The translations under genes and the position numbers were made by a program. Below are positions 1-8,389 of a stretch of 8,389 nt of DNA, piece by piece. The notes beneath the pieces are model-generated. The model searched no databases, was not told where the DNA came from, and saw nothing but the letters and a program-made list of their open reading frames with translations. The stretch is taken from the NCBI GenBank assembly GCA_002329545.1, contig DCTJ01000044.1, forward strand, positions 27,080 through 35,468, written 5' to 3'. The stretch comes from Candidatus Omnitrophica bacterium UBA1443 (GTDB lineage: Bacteria; Omnitrophota; Omnitrophia; Omnitrophales; Aquincolibacteriaceae). How positions within the stretch are numbered: the stretch's first letter is position 1; every line of letters starts with the position of its first letter.

Positions 1-486
1 CGCCAGCTGGACCTCGCCATGGCCACTCGTAAAACAAACATCCACGTTTCGGGGATGCAAAATTCGAAGAAAGGCATTTGTGAAGGCCTCTTCGTTGGGG
101 TCCACGACCCTTTCTTCCCGCTCACCCGCGCGGATCAGGATCGTCGCGGGCTGGGTAATTTGAAATTTTTTCGCCATCCCGGGACGCCGTGCCGGGTCAT
201 AAAAATAATACCGCAGATCCGGATGATACCGCTGACATTCTCTGAGGAAAACCTCGAGGCCACGCCTCGCGTCATCTCCCTGGGGATAAAACGCATACAC
301 CTCCACCGGCTGAGAACTCAGTTCCTTGAGAACACCGGACGTGACGGGCGGTAACGAATACACTTTTTCCTGGGTGAGATCCCAACGGTAATCATACCGG
401 TCGAGAATCACGCCAACGAGAATCAAAGTCGCGAAAAGAAGCGCGGCCTCCAGGACTAGCTGAAATTTAAGGAAAAATCGTCTCAT
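1..486 (-). CDS. GldG-like auxiliary subunit of ABC-2 transporter (partial, 3' end missing)
   Basis: The frame opens at ATG (484-486) and runs off the left edge after 162 codons, so only the N-terminus is present. Residues about 12-29 form one hydrophobic membrane segment. It is followed by RWDLTQEKVYSLPP (34-47), the family hallmark in which an R-x-DLT stretch precedes a YSL motif. VEVYAFYP (61-68) and FTSGHGEVQ (152-160) match the conserved strands of the GldG/ABC-2 auxiliary domain, which would lie outside the membrane. In Bacteroidetes GldG works with GldA and GldF and is needed for gliding. Homologues in other phyla are common and have no assigned substrate, so gliding should not be inferred. 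An in-frame stop lies upstream and the start is the first ATG, but no good Shine-Dalgarno precedes it. It follows the permease after 111 bp and is probably in the same operon. Confidence 0.85.
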   Translation of the reverse strand, partial: MRRFFLKFQLVLEAALLFATLILVGVILDRYDYRWDLTQEKVYSLPPVTSGVLKELSSQPVEVYAFYPQGDDARRGLEVFLRECQRYHPDLRYYFYDPARRPGMAKKFQITQPATILIRAGEREERVVDPNEEAFTNAFLRILHPRNVDVCFTSGHGEVQLA

Positions 487-597
487 AAAATTTTTAAAAT
501 GTATCGAAGGCTTCGAACTGGTTTTACAAGTTCATTTTTTATTTTCCAATTCCCGGGGAACAATCGTCCGCCGATTTTCCCCACAAATGTTTTTCCA

Positions 598-1377
598 TCA
601 GGACTCTTTCCAGTTCCGTGTTTCAATCGAACGAAGCGACAGAAAAAGAAAATAAAAGAAAAAGAACGCGAAATATATCAGGTCACGAAGATCTAAAATA
701 CCATACGTGAAGTTTCTGAAATGCCGAAGTGGCGACATCGCGTTCACAACGACGGACACGCCTCCCCCTCCCGACATGGGAGCGAAATCCATCATCCAGA
801 AAATCACCAATATTCCGAAAGTTCCCACCGCGCTCATGACCGAACTTTTCGTGAGCGTCGAAACAAAGACACCCGCCGAAAGATACGCCATGCCCAGTAC
901 CCAGAAACCCAGAAAGGCCGACAAAACGGGCCCCCAGTCCAGCTCTCCGCCGATCCAGTAAAAAACCAGCGCGTAACCCGCCAAAGGGACGAGGAGCATC
1001 TCAAAAAACCAGATCAGACCAAGCAATTTGCCGGCGACGATTTCAAGGTCCGTCAAGGGGTACGTAAACAAAAGCTCAAGGGTTTCGTGTTTTCTTTCTT
1101 CCGCGAACGAACGCATCGTTATAAGCGGCACCAAAAACAGCAAAATGACGTTCAGATTTAAAAAAAGCGACCCGAAAACATAATGCGTCTGGCTAATATT
1201 GGGGAAACTCGAAAGGCCCGCGCTTCGGGGATCCATGGAAATCTGCGCGAAATTCAGGGTCAGGATCACAAAAAAAATCCCCGTCACCGCAAAAAACATG
1301 ACGGCCGTCATCACCCCCGTCCAGGAGTGAAAAAAGGAGCCAAACTCCTTTCGCGCAATCGCAAAAACCTTTCTCAT
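598..1377 (-). CDS. ABC-2 type permease, GldF-like
   Basis: This 259-residue integral membrane protein is the likely channel subunit of the exporter. About six membrane segments are visible, near residues 21-43, 70-90, 115-140, 150-172, 182-198 and 232-249. PLITMRSFAEERKHETLELL (84-103), followed by a TYPLTDLEIVAGK stretch, is the cytoplasmic coupling region typical of GldF and NosY-like ABC-2 permeases. HFRNFTYGILDLRDLIYF near the C-terminus is also family-typical. The start at 1377 is preferred over the longer frame beginning at 1506. The extra 43 residues are charged and unlike the family, they overlap the ATPase gene, and GGAGGG lies 6 bp before this ATG. The length is normal for the family. 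It lies 79 bp after the ATPase stop and 111 bp before the GldG-like gene, so a three-gene operon is likely. The transported substrate is unknown. Confidence 0.9.
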   Translation of the reverse strand: MRKVFAIARKEFGSFFHSWTGVMTAVMFFAVTGIFFVILTLNFAQISMDPRSAGLSSFPNISQTHYVFGSLFLNLNVILLFLVPLITMRSFAEERKHETLELLFTYPLTDLEIVAGKLLGLIWFFEMLLVPLAGYALVFYWIGGELDWGPVLSAFLGFWVLGMAYLSAGVFVSTLTKSSVMSAVGTFGILVIFWMMDFAPMSGGGGVSVVVNAMSPLRHFRNFTYGILDLRDLIYFAFFFFYFLFLSLRSIETRNWKES

Positions 1378-1383
1378 TCCTCG

Positions 1384-1389
1384 CCCTCC
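1384..1389 (-). promoter_or_regulatory. Shine-Dalgarno of the ABC permease
   Basis: GGAGGG on the minus strand lies 6 bp upstream of the ATG at 1375-1377. It decides the permease start against the longer frame that would overlap the ATPase gene. Confidence 0.75.
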
Positions 1390-1456
1390 ATGAGCACAAC
1401 AGAATTTCGGAAAACAGAGGTCATTAAGCAGTGTCGATTTTGATTTAGTGAATCTT

Positions 1457-2473
1457 TCATGTTTCGGCTTTTGCCTCGATTTTTGTTCTTTGTTGGAACC
1501 AGCCATCTTTAAGCAATTTAAGAAAAATTTCTTCGAGCGTTAGCTGGTCGCGGCGAATTTCAAGCACCGGAATTTTGCTCTCCACAAAGAACTTGGTAAT
1601 TTCGGGACGAAGATCCTCGTCCTGGGCTGTTTCCAGGCAAAACTGGATCTCATTTTCATGGCGTTCAACCACCCTGACATTTTCAACGCCCGAAATCTTT
1701 GAAAGAATTTCCTCGGCAGTTTCCTGGTATTGCGCCCCGGGGACCGTCACAAAAATCGCTTCACGATCCTTGAGGCAAGACTCAAGCTCCCGAACCGTCC
1801 CGCTGGCAAGCACTTTCCCCTGATGAATCATGATGACCCTGTTACAGATCATCGACACTTCGGGAAGAATATGCGTCGAAAGAATCACCGCTCGCCGCTT
1901 GCCGAGATCCCGAATGAGCGCGCGAATTTCTGCGATCTGTTTCGGATCTAATCCTGTCGTCGGCTCATCCAGAACAAGAACCGGAGGATCCCCGATCAGG
2001 GCTTGGGCAAGCCCGACCCGTTGACGAAATCCCTTGGAAAGACGCCCGATCAAACGGTGTTCCACGTCCGTGAGGCCACAAAGGGAAATTTTTTCTTCCA
2101 TTTCCATCGGTATGTCTTTGGGCCTGATACCCTTGAGTTCGGCCACGTACCGAAGGTACTCCCTGACGCGCATATCCGGATAAAGTCGTACGACTTCGGG
2201 AAGATAGCCCACATGTCTTTTTGCCCGCTGGGGCTCTCTAAAAAGATCCATGCCGTCCAGGATGACACGTCCCGACGTCGGAGAGAAATAGCCCGCGAGA
2301 ATTCGCATGGCTGTGGTCTTCCCGGCCCCGTTGGGTCCGAGAAAACCGATCACCTCTCCTTGGGCAATTTCAAAGGAAAGATTCTCGACTGCAAATTTGT
2401 TGCCGTACCGTTTGGTAACGCTTTCAAAACGGACCAAGCCTTCGGTTGATCGGGGTTTTCGGATGGTAACCAT
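1457..2473 (-). CDS. ABC transporter ATPase, GldA-like
   Basis: This 338-residue nucleotide-binding subunit would power the adjacent permease in the cytoplasm. Visible motifs are Walker A GPNGAGKTT (46-54), a Q-loop region GYLPEVVRLYPDM (89-101) with Glu where Gln is usual, signature LSKGFRQRVGLAQAL (145-159), Walker B plus D-loop VLVLDEPTTGLDP (165-177) and the switch histidine in STHILPEV (H201). The YLPE...LYPDM and LSKGFRQRVG forms are typical of the GldA branch of ABC-2 exporter ATPases. The last 100 residues form the accessory domain and end in LTLEEIFLKLLK, as in this branch. The start at ATG 2471-2473 adds about 12 residues before the conserved LVRFESVTKRYG. It has no clear Shine-Dalgarno, and an internal TTG at codon 13 has an AAGG too close to be better. 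Two near-identical 14-bp repeats lie just upstream. The permease and GldG-like genes follow. Confidence 0.93.
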   Translation of the reverse strand: MVTIRKPRSTEGLVRFESVTKRYGNKFAVENLSFEIAQGEVIGFLGPNGAGKTTAMRILAGYFSPTSGRVILDGMDLFREPQRAKRHVGYLPEVVRLYPDMRVREYLRYVAELKGIRPKDIPMEMEEKISLCGLTDVEHRLIGRLSKGFRQRVGLAQALIGDPPVLVLDEPTTGLDPKQIAEIRALIRDLGKRRAVILSTHILPEVSMICNRVIMIHQGKVLASGTVRELESCLKDREAIFVTVPGAQYQETAEEILSKISGVENVRVVERHENEIQFCLETAQDEDLRPEITKFFVESKIPVLEIRRDQLTLEEIFLKLLKDGWFQQRTKIEAKAET

Positions 2474-2483
2474 AATTTCAGTA

Positions 2484-2508
2484 TGTGGTATGTAATGTGT
2501 GGTATGTA
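2484..2508. repeat. Two-copy 11-bp direct repeat upstream of the ATPase gene
   Basis: TGTGGTATGTA on the plus strand occurs at 2484-2494 and 2498-2508, spaced by ATG, giving a 14-bp period. On the coding strand this reads TACATACCACA twice. It begins about 10 bp upstream of the ATPase start codon. It could be a regulator site, a slippage product or a fragment of a longer simple repeat elsewhere. The sequence shows the repeat but not its function. Confidence 0.8.
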
Positions 2509-2669
2509 GTCACATCAAGTCTCAAGTAAATTTTTTAAGAGCAGCAATCATCACGCGCCAGTTCACTTACGTTTCATTTCAATATCTTCCGCAAAATTTC
2601 TACGGAGACCGGTTTCACGCATATTTTCGCCCCGTTATTTTTCAGGGAATCAGAAAACGGGTCTTGATA

Positions 2670-3884
2670 TTATGAAGCCGATTCGATTTTTACGAATTTC
2701 CGTTTTCCACATTGCACAATGAGTTCGTGGTCAAGCTTGATGACCTGCTTAACGTCCGTCACTGTCACCTGATCGACCTTCACGCCGCCTTGTTCGATCA
2801 ACCTGCGCGCCTCTCCCTTGCTTGCCACTAACCCGGCCTCGACAAGTATCGAAACGATGTCCATCTCGGACTTTAAAAACTTTACCGTAGGGATTTGATC
2901 CGGCAGACCTTTTTTTTTGAAAATCTCGTCAAACTCCTCCCGCGCGCGCTTGCCATTTTCAGCCCCATGGAACAACGCCACGATCCGTTCGGCAAGAGAC
3001 GCTTTCATTTCGCGGGGATGCAGTTGCCCTGTTTTAAGGCCCTGAATAATGGCCTCAACTTCTTTTACCCGAATGGCGCTTACATACCGGTAAAACCGCT
3101 CCATCATGGGATCCGAGATCGACATGACTTTGCCAAACATCTCACGGGGCGAATCCTTCAGGGCAATGTGATTATTGAGACTCTTTGACATCTTCTGAAC
3201 TCCGTCCGTTCCTTCGATGATCGGCAGGGTCATCACAACCTGTGGCGCTTGACCATCTGTTTTCTGGAGTTCCCGGCCCACCAAAAGATTAAACTTTTGA
3301 TCCGTACCACCAAGTTCAACATCCGAACGTACCACGACAGAATCATGCCCCTGCATGAGAGGATAAAGGAACTCAACCAGGGCAATGGGATCACCCGCCT
3401 TGTATCGCTTGGAAAAATCATCCCTCTCAATCAACCTCGCCACGGTGTATTGCCCCGTCAGCCGGAGGAAGTCCCCAGGTGTCATTTTCGCCAGCCACTC
3501 AGAATTGTAGCGGACTTCGGTCTTCTTCTTGTCGAGGATTTGAAAAACCTGATCCTGGTAGGTCTTCGCGTTTCTCGCGACATCCTCCGGAGATAACATT
3601 TTTCGGGTCTCGGAACGGCCCGAAGGATCTCCGATCTGGGCGGTAAAATCGCCAATAATAAAAACCACCTGATGGCCTAAATCCTGAAGTTGGCGAAGTT
3701 TACGCAAAGGGACTGTGTGTCCGAGGTGAAGGTCGGGAGCCGAAGGATCGGCTCCGTATTTGATCCGGAGAGGGCGGTTCTTTTGAAGAGATTCCGTCAG
3801 TTTCGCTTCAAGTTCACGTTCCGAAATAAGCTCAACAAGATTTTCCTTAAAAACGGAAATTTGTTCTTTAACGGATGGAAACAT
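2670..3884 (-). CDS. tyrS: Tyrosyl-tRNA synthetase (TyrZ-like)
   Basis: This cytoplasmic class I synthetase charges tRNA-Tyr with tyrosine using ATP. The protein has 404 residues, a normal length. The ATP-binding signature is HLGH at 53-56 within GADPSAPDLHLGHTVPL, and the second signature is KMSKS at 231-235. YPLMQGHD (174-181) and GGTDQ (192-196) belong to the tyrosine and Rossmann pocket. The HLGH/KMSKS pair places it with the TyrZ type rather than the HIGH/KFGKT type of the E. coli enzyme. Residues about 341-400 form an S4 RNA-binding domain with AGLVASKGEARRLIEQGGV. The start at 3884 is chosen because GAGG lies 4 bp upstream and MFPSVKEQI aligns with family N-termini. An ATG 15 codons upstream (3929) is possible but has no good ribosome site. 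No T-box leader is recognisable. It stands alone between two spacers, and all key residues are present. Confidence 0.97.
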   Translation of the reverse strand: MFPSVKEQISVFKENLVELISERELEAKLTESLQKNRPLRIKYGADPSAPDLHLGHTVPLRKLRQLQDLGHQVVFIIGDFTAQIGDPSGRSETRKMLSPEDVARNAKTYQDQVFQILDKKKTEVRYNSEWLAKMTPGDFLRLTGQYTVARLIERDDFSKRYKAGDPIALVEFLYPLMQGHDSVVVRSDVELGGTDQKFNLLVGRELQKTDGQAPQVVMTLPIIEGTDGVQKMSKSLNNHIALKDSPREMFGKVMSISDPMMERFYRYVSAIRVKEVEAIIQGLKTGQLHPREMKASLAERIVALFHGAENGKRAREEFDEIFKKKGLPDQIPTVKFLKSEMDIVSILVEAGLVASKGEARRLIEQGGVKVDQVTVTDVKQVIKLDHELIVQCGKRKFVKIESAS

Positions 3885-3887
3885 TTT

Positions 3888-3892
3888 TCCTC
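3888..3892 (-). promoter_or_regulatory. Shine-Dalgarno of tyrS
   Basis: GAGGA on the minus strand, with its GAGG core 4 bp before the ATG at 3882-3884, supports this start over the in-frame ATG at 3929. The spacing is slightly short but acceptable. Confidence 0.55.
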
Positions 3893-4030
3893 GCACACAT
3901 CGTATTGAGCCTCCGGCAACTGACTTCATTTTCGGCGGACATCAAAAACCAGGTATTGGTTTCAAAAGGAGTTACAAAAACGGCTGTATTCTAACGGGGA
4001 AAATTAAAAGAGAGAAGAAAAAACTGGAAA

Positions 4031-4115: not shown

Positions 4116-7100
4116 TTAGGCGCTTCGGCTGATCGCCTTCTCGCCCATTATCGCTGTCACAATCTGTTCCATGACGAGCATAAAGCGATCCAGCATGCCT
4201 TGCGTCATTCTGATAATGTTTCGCTCCGCAATCCGGAGTAAACGGTTATCCTCTTCAGAAAGAGTTTCTCCGGCAAGAAGCACCGCCCTGACCACAGCGC
4301 CTTTGGGAAGATGGTTTTTGAGTTTTTGAGTGGAAAGGTATGGCTCCAGTCCGGCCTCTCCAAGAATCTGATTGATTGAGGCCAGCGTTTCCGAATCAGT
4401 AACAACGGCAACCAGGGAACCCTGTAACGCCTCACGAAACGCCACAAGACCCCGGCCGTCATTTTCCCGCAACTTCTTCAGAAGCTCTGCTCCAAGAACA
4501 AACACATCGGCTACATCAACCGAGGGTTTCCGGATCCCCAAAATCTCCAGAGCTCTCTGGAATATTTCCTTTCTGTCAGCGGTCGACAATCCGGTCGCGT
4601 CAGCCGGTGAAACACCCACGGCCTCCATCATGGCTCGCAACGCTTGTCCCGCAGTATTAAGGCCCGTTTCAATCCCCTCACGCACACGTTCGGGAATGAT
4701 GCCATAATAAAATTCCCGAATCAAAGTCAGCATGAAAGGATTGATCACCTGTTTCAGGTCCCAACGCTCCTCTATCAGCTGTGTTGGAAATAACATTTCT
4801 TCCATCAAAACGGAAGTCGATCGGGCTTCGCTCCTCTTCCTGGAAACTGAATCATCGGATTCCGGTTTTGGCTCAGAAGGAGCCCTGCGAGACACGCCCT
4901 TATCCTGCAATACCGTTTTTAATGGAGAAAAACCAAAAAATCTTTTGCCCACAAAAAGCAATCCATTAAAGATCCCAGCCCCAATCCCCATCAGAATAAC
5001 GGTGGTTCCCCCAATGGTGAGAAAGAATGGGACAGCCGTAAAACCTTCCATCTGGTTAGCCCAACGCCCAACCGCATACACAAAAAGGAGGAGCGGTACG
5101 TTCGCCGCTATTACAAGACTTCCCGCGTAAAAGGTTGCCTCAAAAACCTTCCCCCAACGGCTCCCCTCTTCAATCGTTTCATCTTCACCATTCTCGGAGC
5201 GATTCTCCGAACGAGCAATCCGCTTGGAAAGAACATCACGCAACTGAATAATCCTCCGGCGCGTATAATCACTCGCCAAACCGGCCAAGGCCACGTTAGC
5301 TTTGTCTAATGACTTGATCGCGCCCTCGAAATCACCATTCCCAATAGCAGCCTTCGCACTCCAGAGCAAACTTCGCGCTTCCAACGGGAATGGCTGGTCA
5401 CTCCTGTAATCCGTTACAATCTTTATAACCATGCCAATCAGAGTTGGGGTATCCAGGCTGACGCGAGCTTCCGCGCGAGACAAACGAGCCGATCCATCTC
5501 GGCCGCCCCCTCGATTTCTCTCGAAGCCATCCCTGGTTGTTGCTTGATGGTTAACCGCCCACTGGCGAACCGGATGGCCTTCCGGAAGCTCTTCGGGATT
5601 AACCGGATTAACTTCACGCAAAAAAGCGATCGCGCTTTCCATCTGTCGGGCAAGCATCAGTGAACCCGGCAACTCCTGTCGAGCATGCCTCAACGCAAGA
5701 ACCAAAAGTCTGAGCGCCTGGTTTCGAATGACGGCTATTTCCTCCGGAAAATACATGTTAATGGTTTCATCGGTAGCGGACCATTGGGGATAGACCGTCC
5801 GGTTTTGCATTTCCTTTAACCCATGCCATCCTTCGAGTAGGCCCACGATACCGGCACCAGTCATTGTTTCGCCACGTCGATTCTGGCGGTCCAGAATCTC
5901 ACGAATAAACCGGAGATGCAATGACGTCAGCGGCATTCCTTTCGGGACAAATGCCTGATCCCGTTTGGAAACCGTTAAATTAAAACTCGGTGGAACGTTA
6001 ACGAAGATCTTGTAAACATCTTCTTTACCAAAATACAGATTCGCGCCTTGGTCTTTCGGCTTAAGATTGGCCACAGAAAACGCGGCACGCCCTTCTACCA
6101 CAATCACGTCACCCACATTCACCGTGATGGGAGTCCATACCGGCATCCCATAAAACGTGTACTGTGGCTGTAATAACTGAGTACGCTGACCACTCAATAG
6201 CTGTTCGAATTCCTCAGGATTTACAAGGTCATAATCAACAAAATGCACCTTGCGGCCCGACTGTTTAAAATCCTCTCTTCTCTGCAACTCCTTCACAATC
6301 GATTCAGCAACCACCTCCTTACCGGCAGATTCAGGACCGGTAATCAGTACGACCGGATTCCGGGCAACCCCTTTCGAAAATCGCCCCGATATTCTGTCAA
6401 CTCTTGCCACGATTTCCGCATTAAATTCTCGCGCGGTTTCCGCAAGCAATGCCGCAAGTCGGTCTTTTTGCGTCAGAAAATTCAAATGATTCGTTGTCTC
6501 CGGGCGGCGTGACAGCCCGTGAGAATCGTAGGGTTGTATAGTCCCGTCTTCATACCGGGCTTTCAATTCAGGATCCCTGGCAATCTGGGCGTCAGCAATC
6601 TTCATAAGCGCCGACATGTAAACCGCCTGACGAAAGGTTTTCCCGTAAGAATTCATAATTCTCATCGCGTCATCCGTGGCCTGGCTCATCCGCTCAGAAA
6701 GCATCCGGTCCACCATCGCCGTTGTCCAGCGATCATGCGTATAATTTTGTATCATCTCAAAATAGGACACAATCACGCCCCCCGCGTTCGCAAGCACATC
6801 GGGGATCACCAGTTTGCCGCGAGAAAGCAATATCTTATCCCCTTCCACCGAGGTAGGTCCATTCGCGAGTTCAAGAATCACGGGGGCATTGATCAATCCG
6901 GCATTCTTCTCGGTAATGACATTGTTGGTCGCGGCGGGCACCATCACGTCCACGTTCAGCTTCCAGAAATCTTCATTCGCAATCACACGGGCCCCGGGGA
7001 AATTCTCCAGCGAAAACTCGCCCGGTTTTTTCCCAAGCCGGTTGGACTCGCTTAAAATCCATTGATCAAGGGCCGCGATGTCAATTCCTTTTTCGTTATA

Positions 7101-8389
7101 AATTGTAAATTGGACGAAACGGGTCTTGCCTGTTTCATCCTTTCCGGCCGGGTAAGCCGACTGAATGGCCTTCGCAAGCATGCCTGACCGATTTGCAATA
7201 CGGGCAAAAAAACCGGCCACATTTCCAAATCCCTGAAGGGCATAACTCACCCCCTTGACTGAGGACTTCCTCTGGTGGTGAAGAACCCGCTCCAGGGCAA
7301 AAAATCCACCTTGTCCTGTGGCCTTTTCCCGCCCCTGGGAACCTCCAAGATAGGGATTGGCGGGATCCACGGGGAATATCATCGAATCTCCTTCGGGAGA
7401 TTTCCCTGCAGGTTTTCCGGTCACTGTGGCAGGTTCGATCGTATCAAGTCGATAACCAGCTATCGTTTCATCCTGGGTCAGACGGATGTACTCACGAAGC
7501 ACCTCCACCTTAACAGGATCCGTTTCTTTCATGTTGCCGATAAACTCTCGAAGCGGAGCCAGAATTCTTTGATCAAATATCTTTTCATGCTCCGCCATGA
7601 TTTTTATGTATTCATCAGCAAACCACGCCATCATCTTTCCATCCGTGTTCATGTCCGGAGCCGGAATATCCGAAAAGGGGCCAAAAACATCGATCCCCTC
7701 CTGCTCCATAATCGTTCGCGCATATCCCCGGATCAAGCGGGCCTGTTCAGCCTCAGAAAGAGACGCGCGACTTGCCAAAATGTCCCCTTTCCCTCCACCG
7801 AGCGGAATTCCAACAACAGCCGTTTTGACGGACATCCAGGTCGAAAGCCCCTTGGCTTCTTCAAGGGTTCCTTCCTCATCGTGCTGATCACTCATTCGAA
7901 TCCCCCCCTTGTAGGGACCCCGCGCACTGTTGTGCTGAACACGAAAACCGTGAAAATTACGAACAGATCCATCGTCCATCCGGACTGGTATCGTCACATG
8001 AATTACGCGCTCGTGCTTAATAATCTTTTCTAGCAAAACAGGATCCATAGACAAGGAAGCAGCCGCGTCCCGAATGACCGCCTCTGCCAGTTCCTGCGTC
8101 GTTGCTTTCTTTTCCGCCCGCAATTCTGACCTCGGACGTGATTGGTCCACTTCAACCGCCGGTGCCGGACTCGATTCAACCGGAGTCTTTCCCGCTTCTG
8201 TTCCCTCTTTGGCACTGGAGAACAAAAAGCAAAAATATGCAATGGCTCCCAGAATAGCCGAGGCGACTAATCTTACAGCAACATCAATTAAGAAATTATT
8301 CAGGTCTTTTTCTCGTTGCAACCTCTCATTTTCCCGCTGCACCCTCTCTCTTTCTTCTCTACTTGGCAACCTGCCCGGGCGTCGCGAAG
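4116..8389 (-). CDS. Giant membrane-anchored glutamate dehydrogenase fused to kinase-like and membrane domains (5' end may be missing)
   Basis: Residues are numbered from a TTG at 8369. The frame stays open to the right edge and that TTG lacks a properly spaced Shine-Dalgarno, so the true start may be outside. Layout: charged, coil-like 1-25; membrane segment 26-50; linker; Glu/Leu/Phe/Val dehydrogenase about 100-600; linker; uridine-kinase-like P-loop domain about 668-930; helical segment 970-1050; two membrane segments about 1078-1101 and 1111-1140; helical C-terminus 1186-1417, unrecognised. The dehydrogenase part should interconvert glutamate and 2-oxoglutarate plus ammonia with NAD(P). 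It keeps K154 (GPYKGGIRM), K182, catalytic K194 (GIPLGGGKGDI), D239 (IPAPDMNT), Rossmann GFGNVAG (380-386), PAATNNVIT and LANAGGVIVSYFE. It has extra stretches at about 260-311 and 321-341. The kinase-like part has Walker A GPESAGKE (678-685), with Glu replacing Ser/Thr. A normal bacterial enzyme is about 410-450 residues. The dehydrogenase identity is firm; the role of the whole protein is unknown. Confidence 0.9.
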   Translation of the reverse strand, partial: SRRPGRLPSREERERVQRENERLQREKDLNNFLIDVAVRLVASAILGAIAYFCFLFSSAKEGTEAGKTPVESSPAPAVEVDQSRPRSELRAEKKATTQELAEAVIRDAAASLSMDPVLLEKIIKHERVIHVTIPVRMDDGSVRNFHGFRVQHNSARGPYKGGIRMSDQHDEEGTLEEAKGLSTWMSVKTAVVGIPLGGGKGDILASRASLSEAEQARLIRGYARTIMEQEGIDVFGPFSDIPAPDMNTDGKMMAWFADEYIKIMAEHEKIFDQRILAPLREFIGNMKETDPVKVEVLREYIRLTQDETIAGYRLDTIEPATVTGKPAGKSPEGDSMIFPVDPANPYLGGSQGREKATGQGGFFALERVLHHQRKSSVKGVSYALQGFGNVAGFFARIANRSGMLAKAIQSAYPAGKDETGKTRFVQFTIYNEKGIDIAALDQWILSESNRLGKKPGEFSLENFPGARVIANEDFWKLNVDVMVPAATNNVITEKNAGLINAPVILELANGPTSVEGDKILLSRGKLVIPDVLANAGGVIVSYFEMIQNYTHDRWTTAMVDRMLSERMSQATDDAMRIMNSYGKTFRQAVYMSALMKIADAQIARDPELKARYEDGTIQPYDSHGLSRRPETTNHLNFLTQKDRLAALLAETAREFNAEIVARVDRISGRFSKGVARNPVVLITGPESAGKEVVAESIVKELQRREDFKQSGRKVHFVDYDLVNPEEFEQLLSGQRTQLLQPQYTFYGMPVWTPITVNVGDVIVVEGRAAFSVANLKPKDQGANLYFGKEDVYKIFVNVPPSFNLTVSKRDQAFVPKGMPLTSLHLRFIREILDRQNRRGETMTGAGIVGLLEGWHGLKEMQNRTVYPQWSATDETINMYFPEEIAVIRNQALRLLVLALRHARQELPGSLMLARQMESAIAFLREVNPVNPEELPEGHPVRQWAVNHQATTRDGFERNRGGGRDGSARLSRAEARVSLDTPTLIGMVIKIVTDYRSDQPFPLEARSLLWSAKAAIGNGDFEGAIKSLDKANVALAGLASDYTRRRIIQLRDVLSKRIARSENRSENGEDETIEEGSRWGKVFEATFYAGSLVIAANVPLLLFVYAVGRWANQMEGFTAVPFFLTIGGTTVILMGIGAGIFNGLLFVGKRFFGFSPLKTVLQDKGVSRRAPSEPKPESDDSVSRKRSEARSTSVLMEEMLFPTQLIEERWDLKQVINPFMLTLIREFYYGIIPERVREGIETGLNTAGQALRAMMEAVGVSPADATGLSTADRKEIFQRALEILGIRKPSVDVADVFVLGAELLKKLRENDGRGLVAFREALQGSLVAVVTDSETLASINQILGEAGLEPYLSTQKLKNHLPKGAVVRAVLLAGETLSEEDNRLLRIAERNIIRMTQGMLDRFMLVMEQIVTAIMGEKAISRSA

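Follow-up and report, generated by a model that had tools for sequence, protein, structure and literature searches.

Glutamate dehydrogenase as a cassette of giant, predicted exported multi-enzyme proteins with a recurring RSExR tag in Omnitrophota

Very long open reading frames (ORFs) have been described before in the Omnitrophota. Seymour et al. (2023) reported ORFs of more than 20 kb, such as the one encoding a 39,678-residue protein of Candidatus Velamenicoccus archaeovorus, and in the accessible text these are characterized as occurring in many genomes, poorly conserved and sparsely annotated, with adhesion or coat roles under discussion (PMC10066038). Omnitrophica and Elusimicrobiota are likewise named, in the part of the source available, among the phyla rich in huge proteins (PMC11573180). 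Here we examined a window of 8,389 nucleotides from Candidatus Omnitrophica bacterium UBA1443 (source genome G000; contig DCTJ01000044.1, positions 27,080 to 35,468, or G000:C29:27080-35468), whose minus strand encodes a glutamate dehydrogenase (GDH) and a kinase-like partner within one long frame. The protein family to which this frame belongs resembles the published giant ORFs in its phylum and in its very long single frames, of which those of 11,858 and 15,709 residues exceed 20 kb. It differs from them, as far as their description allows comparison, in a conserved N-terminal module (N-module), in its enzyme cassettes and in a short joint tag, RSExR; the available main text of the earlier study does not mention a polyprotein, a signal peptide or GDH (PMC10066038). 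Our preferred reading, to which we give about an even chance of being right, is that the GDH and kinase-like domains of the window form one cassette within a giant multi-enzyme chain, for which export is predicted and which is probably cut at RSExR into separate enzymes.

Three further systems invite comparison. A large secreted protein of Candidatus Menyafoubacter, from a related Planctomycetota-Verrucomicrobiota-Chlamydiota (PVC) lineage, is similar in its length of approximately 6,000 residues, its signal peptide and its predicted extracellular location, and differs in that the accessible description gives it domains of carbohydrate-binding, beta-helix and toxin-like kinds in place of central metabolic enzymes and mentions no joint tag (PMC12057145). 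The secreted autoprocessing multi-effectors of the MARTX type would work alike, with one giant chain from which cargo is freed by cutting, as outlined in the available portion of the source (PMC6254334). The complete protein encoded by the window's gene, P0001, is not a member of that group, as its only Pfam matches at E <= 0.01 are to the GDH families, its family carries housekeeping cargo, and the cutting is inferred by us. The soluble hexameric GDHs (for example PDB 2yfq) share with the window protein a homologous catalytic domain with its catalytic Lys and Asp, whereas the window GDH lies in a giant chain, has an insertion between its halves and is accompanied by a kinase-like partner. Giant ORFs of Omnitrophota are thus already known, and no precedent for an organization of enzyme cassettes jointed by a tag was found among the literature matches listed, a set with preprints and most subscription journals outside its scope.

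We found that the window frame runs uninterrupted on the minus strand from position 8387 down to a stop codon at 4116-4118 (4116..8387, 1,423 residues plus stop) and that the right edge of the window adjoins an NN assembly gap (C29:35469-35470), the frame being part of a longer gene. P0001 comprises 2,396 residues, is encoded on a 518,120-base contig and is identical to the window across its 1,423 residues, which form residues 974-2396, the C-terminal 59% of the chain. The 973 residues upstream consist of a Sec-like signal sequence and the N-module of about 530 residues. The preliminary description of this DNA, made from the window alone, had proposed that a GDH forms part of a very large protein of many domains; this was borne out, and the protein is larger than described there. 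Its list of domains was right as to the hydrophobic segment, the GDH, the P-loop, the hairpin and the C-terminal domain, and wrong in taking the window end for the N terminus; it also overlooked three RxExR tags at module edges and an RSENR in the region it called helical. The same architecture, which the preliminary description had suggested searching for, was found in P0002 (99% identity) and P0003 (77%). The relative P0004 lacks the GDH-kinase cassette: it is 89% identical to P0001 over residues 1-1097, with an N-module that is 99% identical and divergence around the hydrophobic segment, and 99.4% identical over residues 1934-2396, with the joint between an RSELR and an RAEAR tag. In the window an RSELR lies at 8118..8132 (N-terminal cassette edge) and the RAEAR at 5463..5477 (C-terminal cassette edge, just before which identity with P0004 resumes), both on the minus strand. 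The window coordinates of tags, hydrophobic segments, P-loop, GDH, kinase-like domain and frame end were verified by translation.

The GDH module occupies 6510..8051 on the minus strand, with an extra stretch between its halves. Both Pfam halves of the ELFV GDH family, PF02812 (7608-8015, minus strand) and PF00208 (6576-7346, minus strand), scored far above their gathering thresholds (183.5 and 140.6 bits against 23.4 and 25.3; E = 7.1e-54 and 3.1e-41). The best solved-structure match was PDB 2yfq, and the catalytic Lys and Asp, the glycine-rich NAD fold and the substrate-site Lys are all kept, as expected of an ELFV member. The preliminary description had set the protein apart from the 180-kDa class, and we agree: PF05088 gave no match at E <= 1 in the window frame or at E <= 0.01 in P0001, and a weak match was seen in the relative P0005 (15 bits against a cut-off of 22.8). 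The catalytic Lys and Asp were present in all 11 giant GDHs examined. In a tree with long branches and an unsure finer order, from which duplicate loci and P0002, P0009, L104 and L105 were left out, all 13 giant-borne GDHs fell on one side of a branch of moderate support (85/73), separated from 24 others that include ordinary GDHs of the same phylum. Homologues encoded as separate genes, which the preliminary description took as the finding that would speak against a fused protein, were encountered among these other GDHs only. Among 58 relatives searched, eight genomes, the source genome counted among these eight, carried GDH in a frame of at least 1,500 residues, and four of these eight (G000, G015, G018 and G041) carried an ordinary GDH as well.

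The kinase-like domain (5505..6431, minus strand, profile search) follows GDH in five proteins: P0001, P0003, P0005, P0006 and G018. A profile trained on the first four recovered G018, which lay outside the training set, at E = 6.4e-31. The domain is perhaps distantly related to the phosphoribulokinase (PRK)/uridine kinase family, PF00485 being matched on P0005 only (E = 0.0016; 18.7 bits, below the cut-off of 22), and a solved-structure search with the domain alone returned no significant match. Its P-loop, GPESAGKE (6315..6338, minus strand), is present as first described, without the usual Ser or Thr after GK: the residue at this place is E in the window protein and A, I, V and H in P0003, P0005, P0006 and G018, which makes kinase activity doubtful. 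The GDH-kinase pair is flanked by tags at residues 1059 and 1944 in P0001 and 2127 and 2945 in the distant relative G018, with none between the two domains. No kinase match was obtained in G015, G005, G019 and P0022, and there a tag lies 6-13 residues after GDH.

We then considered the N-module and the spread of the family. The module is marked by the patterns HIQTAHGHYEAQ and TGGFH, with an invariant H...H, E-G and GGFH, and shows weak matches to DUF5694 and DUF5682, which we take to be clan relatives of PF04187 (Tiki/ChaN). A protein search in which 7,984 candidates of approximately 1.3-4.2 thousand residues were scored returned 59 proteins of 1.4-4.1 thousand residues, P0001 among them and with the near-duplicate pairs P0001/P0004, P0010/P0011, P0013/P0014 and P0057/P0058. 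Organism names were attached to ten, namely eight Omnitrophota or Omnitrophica, one Endomicrobium and one 'bacterium'. The whole-genome search of the source genome gave 24 matches, or about 16 loci after grouping. In a survey of 285 phylum genomes the module was detected in 143. These took in every one of the 49 genomes listed as sharing the class or a closer rank, together with 94 of the 236 others, the latter counted as module matches whether in a giant frame or not; at most five candidates were scored per genome, and copy numbers are lower bounds. Scanning named genomes with two peptide patterns gave 40 loci, 39 of them titled Omnitrophota or Omnitrophica, while the remaining Zixiibacteriota locus matched the GDH part only, in a frame of 439 residues. 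N-module frames ranged up to 15,709 residues (G041:C68:139678), with another of 13,082 residues at G041:C8:47165. P0001 itself, with a gene of 7.2 kb, falls below the 20-kb limit used for Omnitrophota giant ORFs, which the family frames in G018 and G041 do exceed. As separate observations, an Elusimicrobia fragment, P0008, contains part of the N-module (E = 1.8e-21) and also GDH, with an M50-like HELGH membrane segment recognized by eye at residues ~395-490; from this fragment the family may reach into the Elusimicrobiota. N-modules were also seen in frames of just 538 and 745 residues (G000:C33:20362-21741 and G000:C10:41153-42382; L132, L133, L134, L136), and the module may also stand alone, unless these frames were broken by assembly gaps.

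The cargo carried behind this module differs from protein to protein. Among the 59 proteins we recorded UTP-glucose-1-phosphate uridylyltransferase, triosephosphate isomerase, acetate kinase, hexokinase, glycogen branching enzyme domains, proline and aldehyde dehydrogenases, CsrA, a response regulator and GNAT acetyltransferases. Giants of the source genome carry glycogen synthase, UDP-glucose dehydrogenase, deaminase, guanylate kinase, a CofD-like protein, LOG-like domains and a histidine-kinase ATPase domain, and three other giant frames there had no Pfam match. In G041 a gap-free frame of 11,858 residues starts with the N-module (E = 7.5e-53) and continues with transketolase, PfkB kinase, GDH, a pyridoxal-phosphate (PLP) enzyme, hexokinase, phosphoglucomutase, a CofD-like protein, UDP-glucose pyrophosphorylase and 2-keto-3-deoxy-6-phosphogluconate (KDPG) aldolase, the scan covering all but the last ~1,570 residues and a piece of ~290. 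The G018 frame (11,701 residues, of which 10,770 were examined) holds the GDH-kinase pair, malic enzyme, sugar-nucleotide enzymes and methyltransferases. Much of this cargo is unrelated to nitrogen, and the nitrogen-metabolism role suggested in the preliminary description is not supported. Active sites, judged by residues that we take to be the catalytic ones, are intact in triosephosphate isomerase, acetate kinase and the window GDH. Standalone glycogen synthases and a standalone GDH occur in the source genome alongside the giant-borne copies, and its glycogen phosphorylase was found as a standalone gene only.

The RSExR tag recurs through these proteins. We counted 224 copies in the 59 proteins (158,811 residues), against a mean of 3.3 and a maximum of 7 after shuffling, and at least one copy in 43 of them; among strong family members 39 of 44 had the tag, among weak ones 4 of 15. 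The 36 giant frames reached through the N-module (39 of the 40 named-genome loci, the Zixiibacteriota one being excluded, minus three without a usable frame) held 146 copies in 77,689 residues, present in 29 frames, and 126 neighboring ORFs of at least 250 residues held seven in 63,382 residues, confined to four ORFs (3216, 3161, 962 and 274 residues). These two counts, from the 59 proteins and the 36 frames, are free of any contig choice by RSEAR; among contigs that were picked mostly by the R-S-E-A-R pattern, 17 of 22 tags were of another form. Genome-wide, the R-S-E-A-R DNA pattern was not in excess, with 25 matches against 36 in the reversed control. In 16 giants with Pfam matches, none of 105 R[SA]ExR copies lay inside a Pfam envelope, where 15.4 were expected. 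Tags sit 8 and 5 residues from the edges of triosephosphate isomerase, 1 and 4 from those of hexokinase, 5 after CsrA and 7 after guanylate kinase; at the remaining domain edges the tag is tens or hundreds of residues away.

Spacing between tags had a median of 191 residues, and the first tag after the N-module fell at residue 548-714 in 30 of 43 proteins (P0002, P0003, P0004, P0011, P0014 and P0058 were set aside in the analyses of spacing, residue x and flanks). Residue x tends to be uniform within a protein, with 274 same-x pairs against 105.6 after shuffling, as if the tag were read by a lineage-specific partner; shared descent of the tags could also explain this. Information in the flanks does not exceed 0.34 bits per position, and they show no longer pattern. 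At the DNA level (loci L031-L034, L036, L037-L076, L106-L111, L113 and L115), 264 tag copies comprised 218 different sequences in which each of the six Arg codons and each of the six Ser codons was represented, and codons of the last Arg looked near background. Two other explanations of the tag were tried and rejected. Internal translation starts would place a Met close by, yet 79 of 264 copies had one among the 15 residues that follow (0.30 against a background of 0.25); GGAG was found at 40 of 264 tags against 21 expected from re-dealt codons, which is some excess, with a spacing that is not fixed. An in-frame inserted DNA element was set aside given flanks without a longer repeat and 218 sequences among 264 copies, although the codon skew described below stays unexplained.

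Both ends of the chains also show regularities. A Sec-like start was recognized in 55 of 60 giants, P0001 included, under a crude criterion to which 8 of 32 ordinary ORFs conform as well; the other five giants look truncated or off-rule by eye. With a simple hydropathy cut-off, 7 of 11 GDH giants (P0005, P0006, P0022, G005, G018, G019 and G050) showed nothing hydrophobic after the signal and before the GDH, G015 and G042 in this comparison being cut off at a contig edge. Export is therefore the likely, and simpler, reading for the family as predicted from these starts; the GDH of the window's own protein may lie on either side of the membrane. Further hydrophobic segments occur in many giants. 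Alanine is the final residue in 43 of 60 giants and in 3 of 32 ordinary ORFs. A single C-terminal domain for all giants was considered and rejected: a profile trained on the C termini of 42 giants recovers 29 of them, together with P0016 outside the training set and the held-out source-genome giant on C5 (8.3e-24), and misses the window protein and the C10 giant. The window protein is thus left unassigned to it, with only the -SA end in common.

Taken together, the architecture is directly evident in the translated frames, with a signal-like segment, the N-module, cassettes, tags near their edges, a frequent final alanine and many loci in the source genome. Cutting at the tag is our best guess. 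The signal would send the chain through the Sec pathway, and a protease would read RSExR and free the cassettes, a release through which oligomer-forming enzymes such as GDH, triosephosphate isomerase and CsrA would become able to assemble; GDH is a hexamer, and triosephosphate isomerase and CsrA are dimers. Outside the cytoplasm the freed enzymes would then make up a second, divergent set of metabolic enzymes, next to ordinary standalone copies inside where these are present. On weak grounds, the Tiki/ChaN-like N-module might be put forward as the candidate cutting enzyme. A bolder extension, which we consider rather unlikely, is that Omnitrophota export, as giant polyproteins, a second and divergent version of much of their central metabolism; a protease would cut these at RSExR outside the cytoplasm, and the freed enzymes would run an external metabolism on the contents of prey or host, in an enlarged periplasm or within the victim.

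A number of observations weigh against this scheme. Export meets its strongest objection in the cofactors of the cargo: NAD(P), ATP or sugar nucleotides are required, none of which is expected in the periplasm, and CsrA depends on mRNA, which is not expected there either. One hydrophobic segment lies between signal and GDH in the window protein (8238..8294, minus strand; P0001 residues 1005-1023, from hydropathy), where, as a possible membrane span, it could place the GDH back in the cytoplasm, and five lie there in the G041 giant. RSExR is absent from 16 of the 59 proteins, mostly distant ones. Neither P0005 nor G050, both of which lack the N-module as well, contains R[SA]ExR, and the same holds for P0006, which shows instead a recurring ASSLG at residues 540, 554 and 1872, as if lineages used different tags. 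The next tag in G041 stands 385 residues past GDH, beyond the PLP-enzyme domain, so that not every domain is set off by a tag. Nor are the codons of the tag explained if it acts purely at the protein level: the first Arg is CGC or CGT in 80% and the Ser is TCN in 97% of tags, compared with 44% and 65% at other Arg-Ser pairs. As to the enzymes, the substrate-site lysine motif is missing in three of 11 giant GDHs (G041, G042 and P0022) and altered in G050, and no standalone GDH was seen in four of the eight giant-GDH genomes (G005, G019, G042 and G050), so that a 'second set' is not general. For the proposed cutting enzyme, PF04187 was matched weakly in just 4 of 23 N-module members at E <= 1 (best 0.0016), and the N-module profile had no significant match among solved structures in the PDB.

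A rival reading is an exported giant that stays uncut, its joined enzymes strung like beads as a coat or adhesive of enzyme folds or as tethered catalysts, with RSExR serving as a docking or linker tag. We consider this rather unlikely: the published Omnitrophota giant ORFs are interpreted as surface coats or adhesins in the accessible text (PMC10066038), and the further hydrophobic segments of many giants are in keeping with it, while several cargo enzymes keep their active sites and the tags adjoin domain edges. Several of the cargo enzymes are also oligomeric, which is awkward within a chain of 11,858 residues. The preliminary description had favored a membrane-anchored GDH assembly facing the cytoplasm and regulated by its appended domains, and this now appears improbable. 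One hydrophobic segment before GDH and two after it would agree with such an assembly, GDH being cytoplasmic if signal and first segment both span the membrane, and the GDH-kinase pair, found together in five proteins, fits coupling. The full protein, though, has a Sec-like start, and this assembly is weakened by the seven of 11 GDH giants without a segment between signal and GDH, by the other cargo in sister giants with the same N-module, and by P0004, which retains the hydrophobic segments yet has no GDH.

That the tag is mainly a seam in the DNA, with cassettes spread by recombination or by an in-frame inserted element and RSExR as the scar, seems more improbable again. P0001 and P0004 do differ by a cassette between two tags, and the skewed first Arg and Ser codons point the same way; the variety of tag sequences and of Arg and Ser codons, the near-background last Arg and the information-poor flanks, which leave no longer repeat, argue against a scar. 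An assembly chimera or spurious long frame, which the preliminary description had asked to be excluded, has a negligible chance. The scaffolds of the source genome do contain NN gaps, with none inside the window frame; an identical protein lies on the 518,120-base contig, the architecture recurs on other contigs and in the 77% identical relative, and G041 has the gap-free frame of 11,858 residues. What makes the family of interest is that the giant genes of Omnitrophota, a puzzle commonly interpreted as adhesins or coats, are in part given a grammar by the N-module, the tag and the list of cassettes, one that allows modules to be excised and tested singly. Confirmation of both cutting and export would establish a polyprotein system for metabolic enzymes in bacteria.

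The remaining minus-strand features of the window lie toward the C terminus of the protein. The tag-like RSENR is at 5199..5213, the two halves of a hydrophobic hairpin recognized by hydropathy are at 5070..5126 and 4980..5036, and a further tag, RSEAR (4821..4835), precedes the C-terminal domain (4119..4820), to which no fold was assigned and which ends in ...SRSA, without a match to the C-terminal profile. When P0001 residues 1600-2396 were used as a query over a limited range of protein lengths, only P0001 and P0004 were recovered, which indicates that this C-terminal half is poorly conserved or occurs in proteins outside the searched lengths. The end of contig C19 of the source genome matches P0001 residues 1-306 at 99.3% identity and is either the start of the window's gene or that of a near copy. 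The rest of the window (1-3929, minus strand) is occupied by ordinary neighboring genes, presumably an ABC-type transporter set, possibly GldG/GldF-like, at 1-2473 (minus strand) and what we take to be a tyrosyl-tRNA synthetase at 2670-3929 (minus strand).

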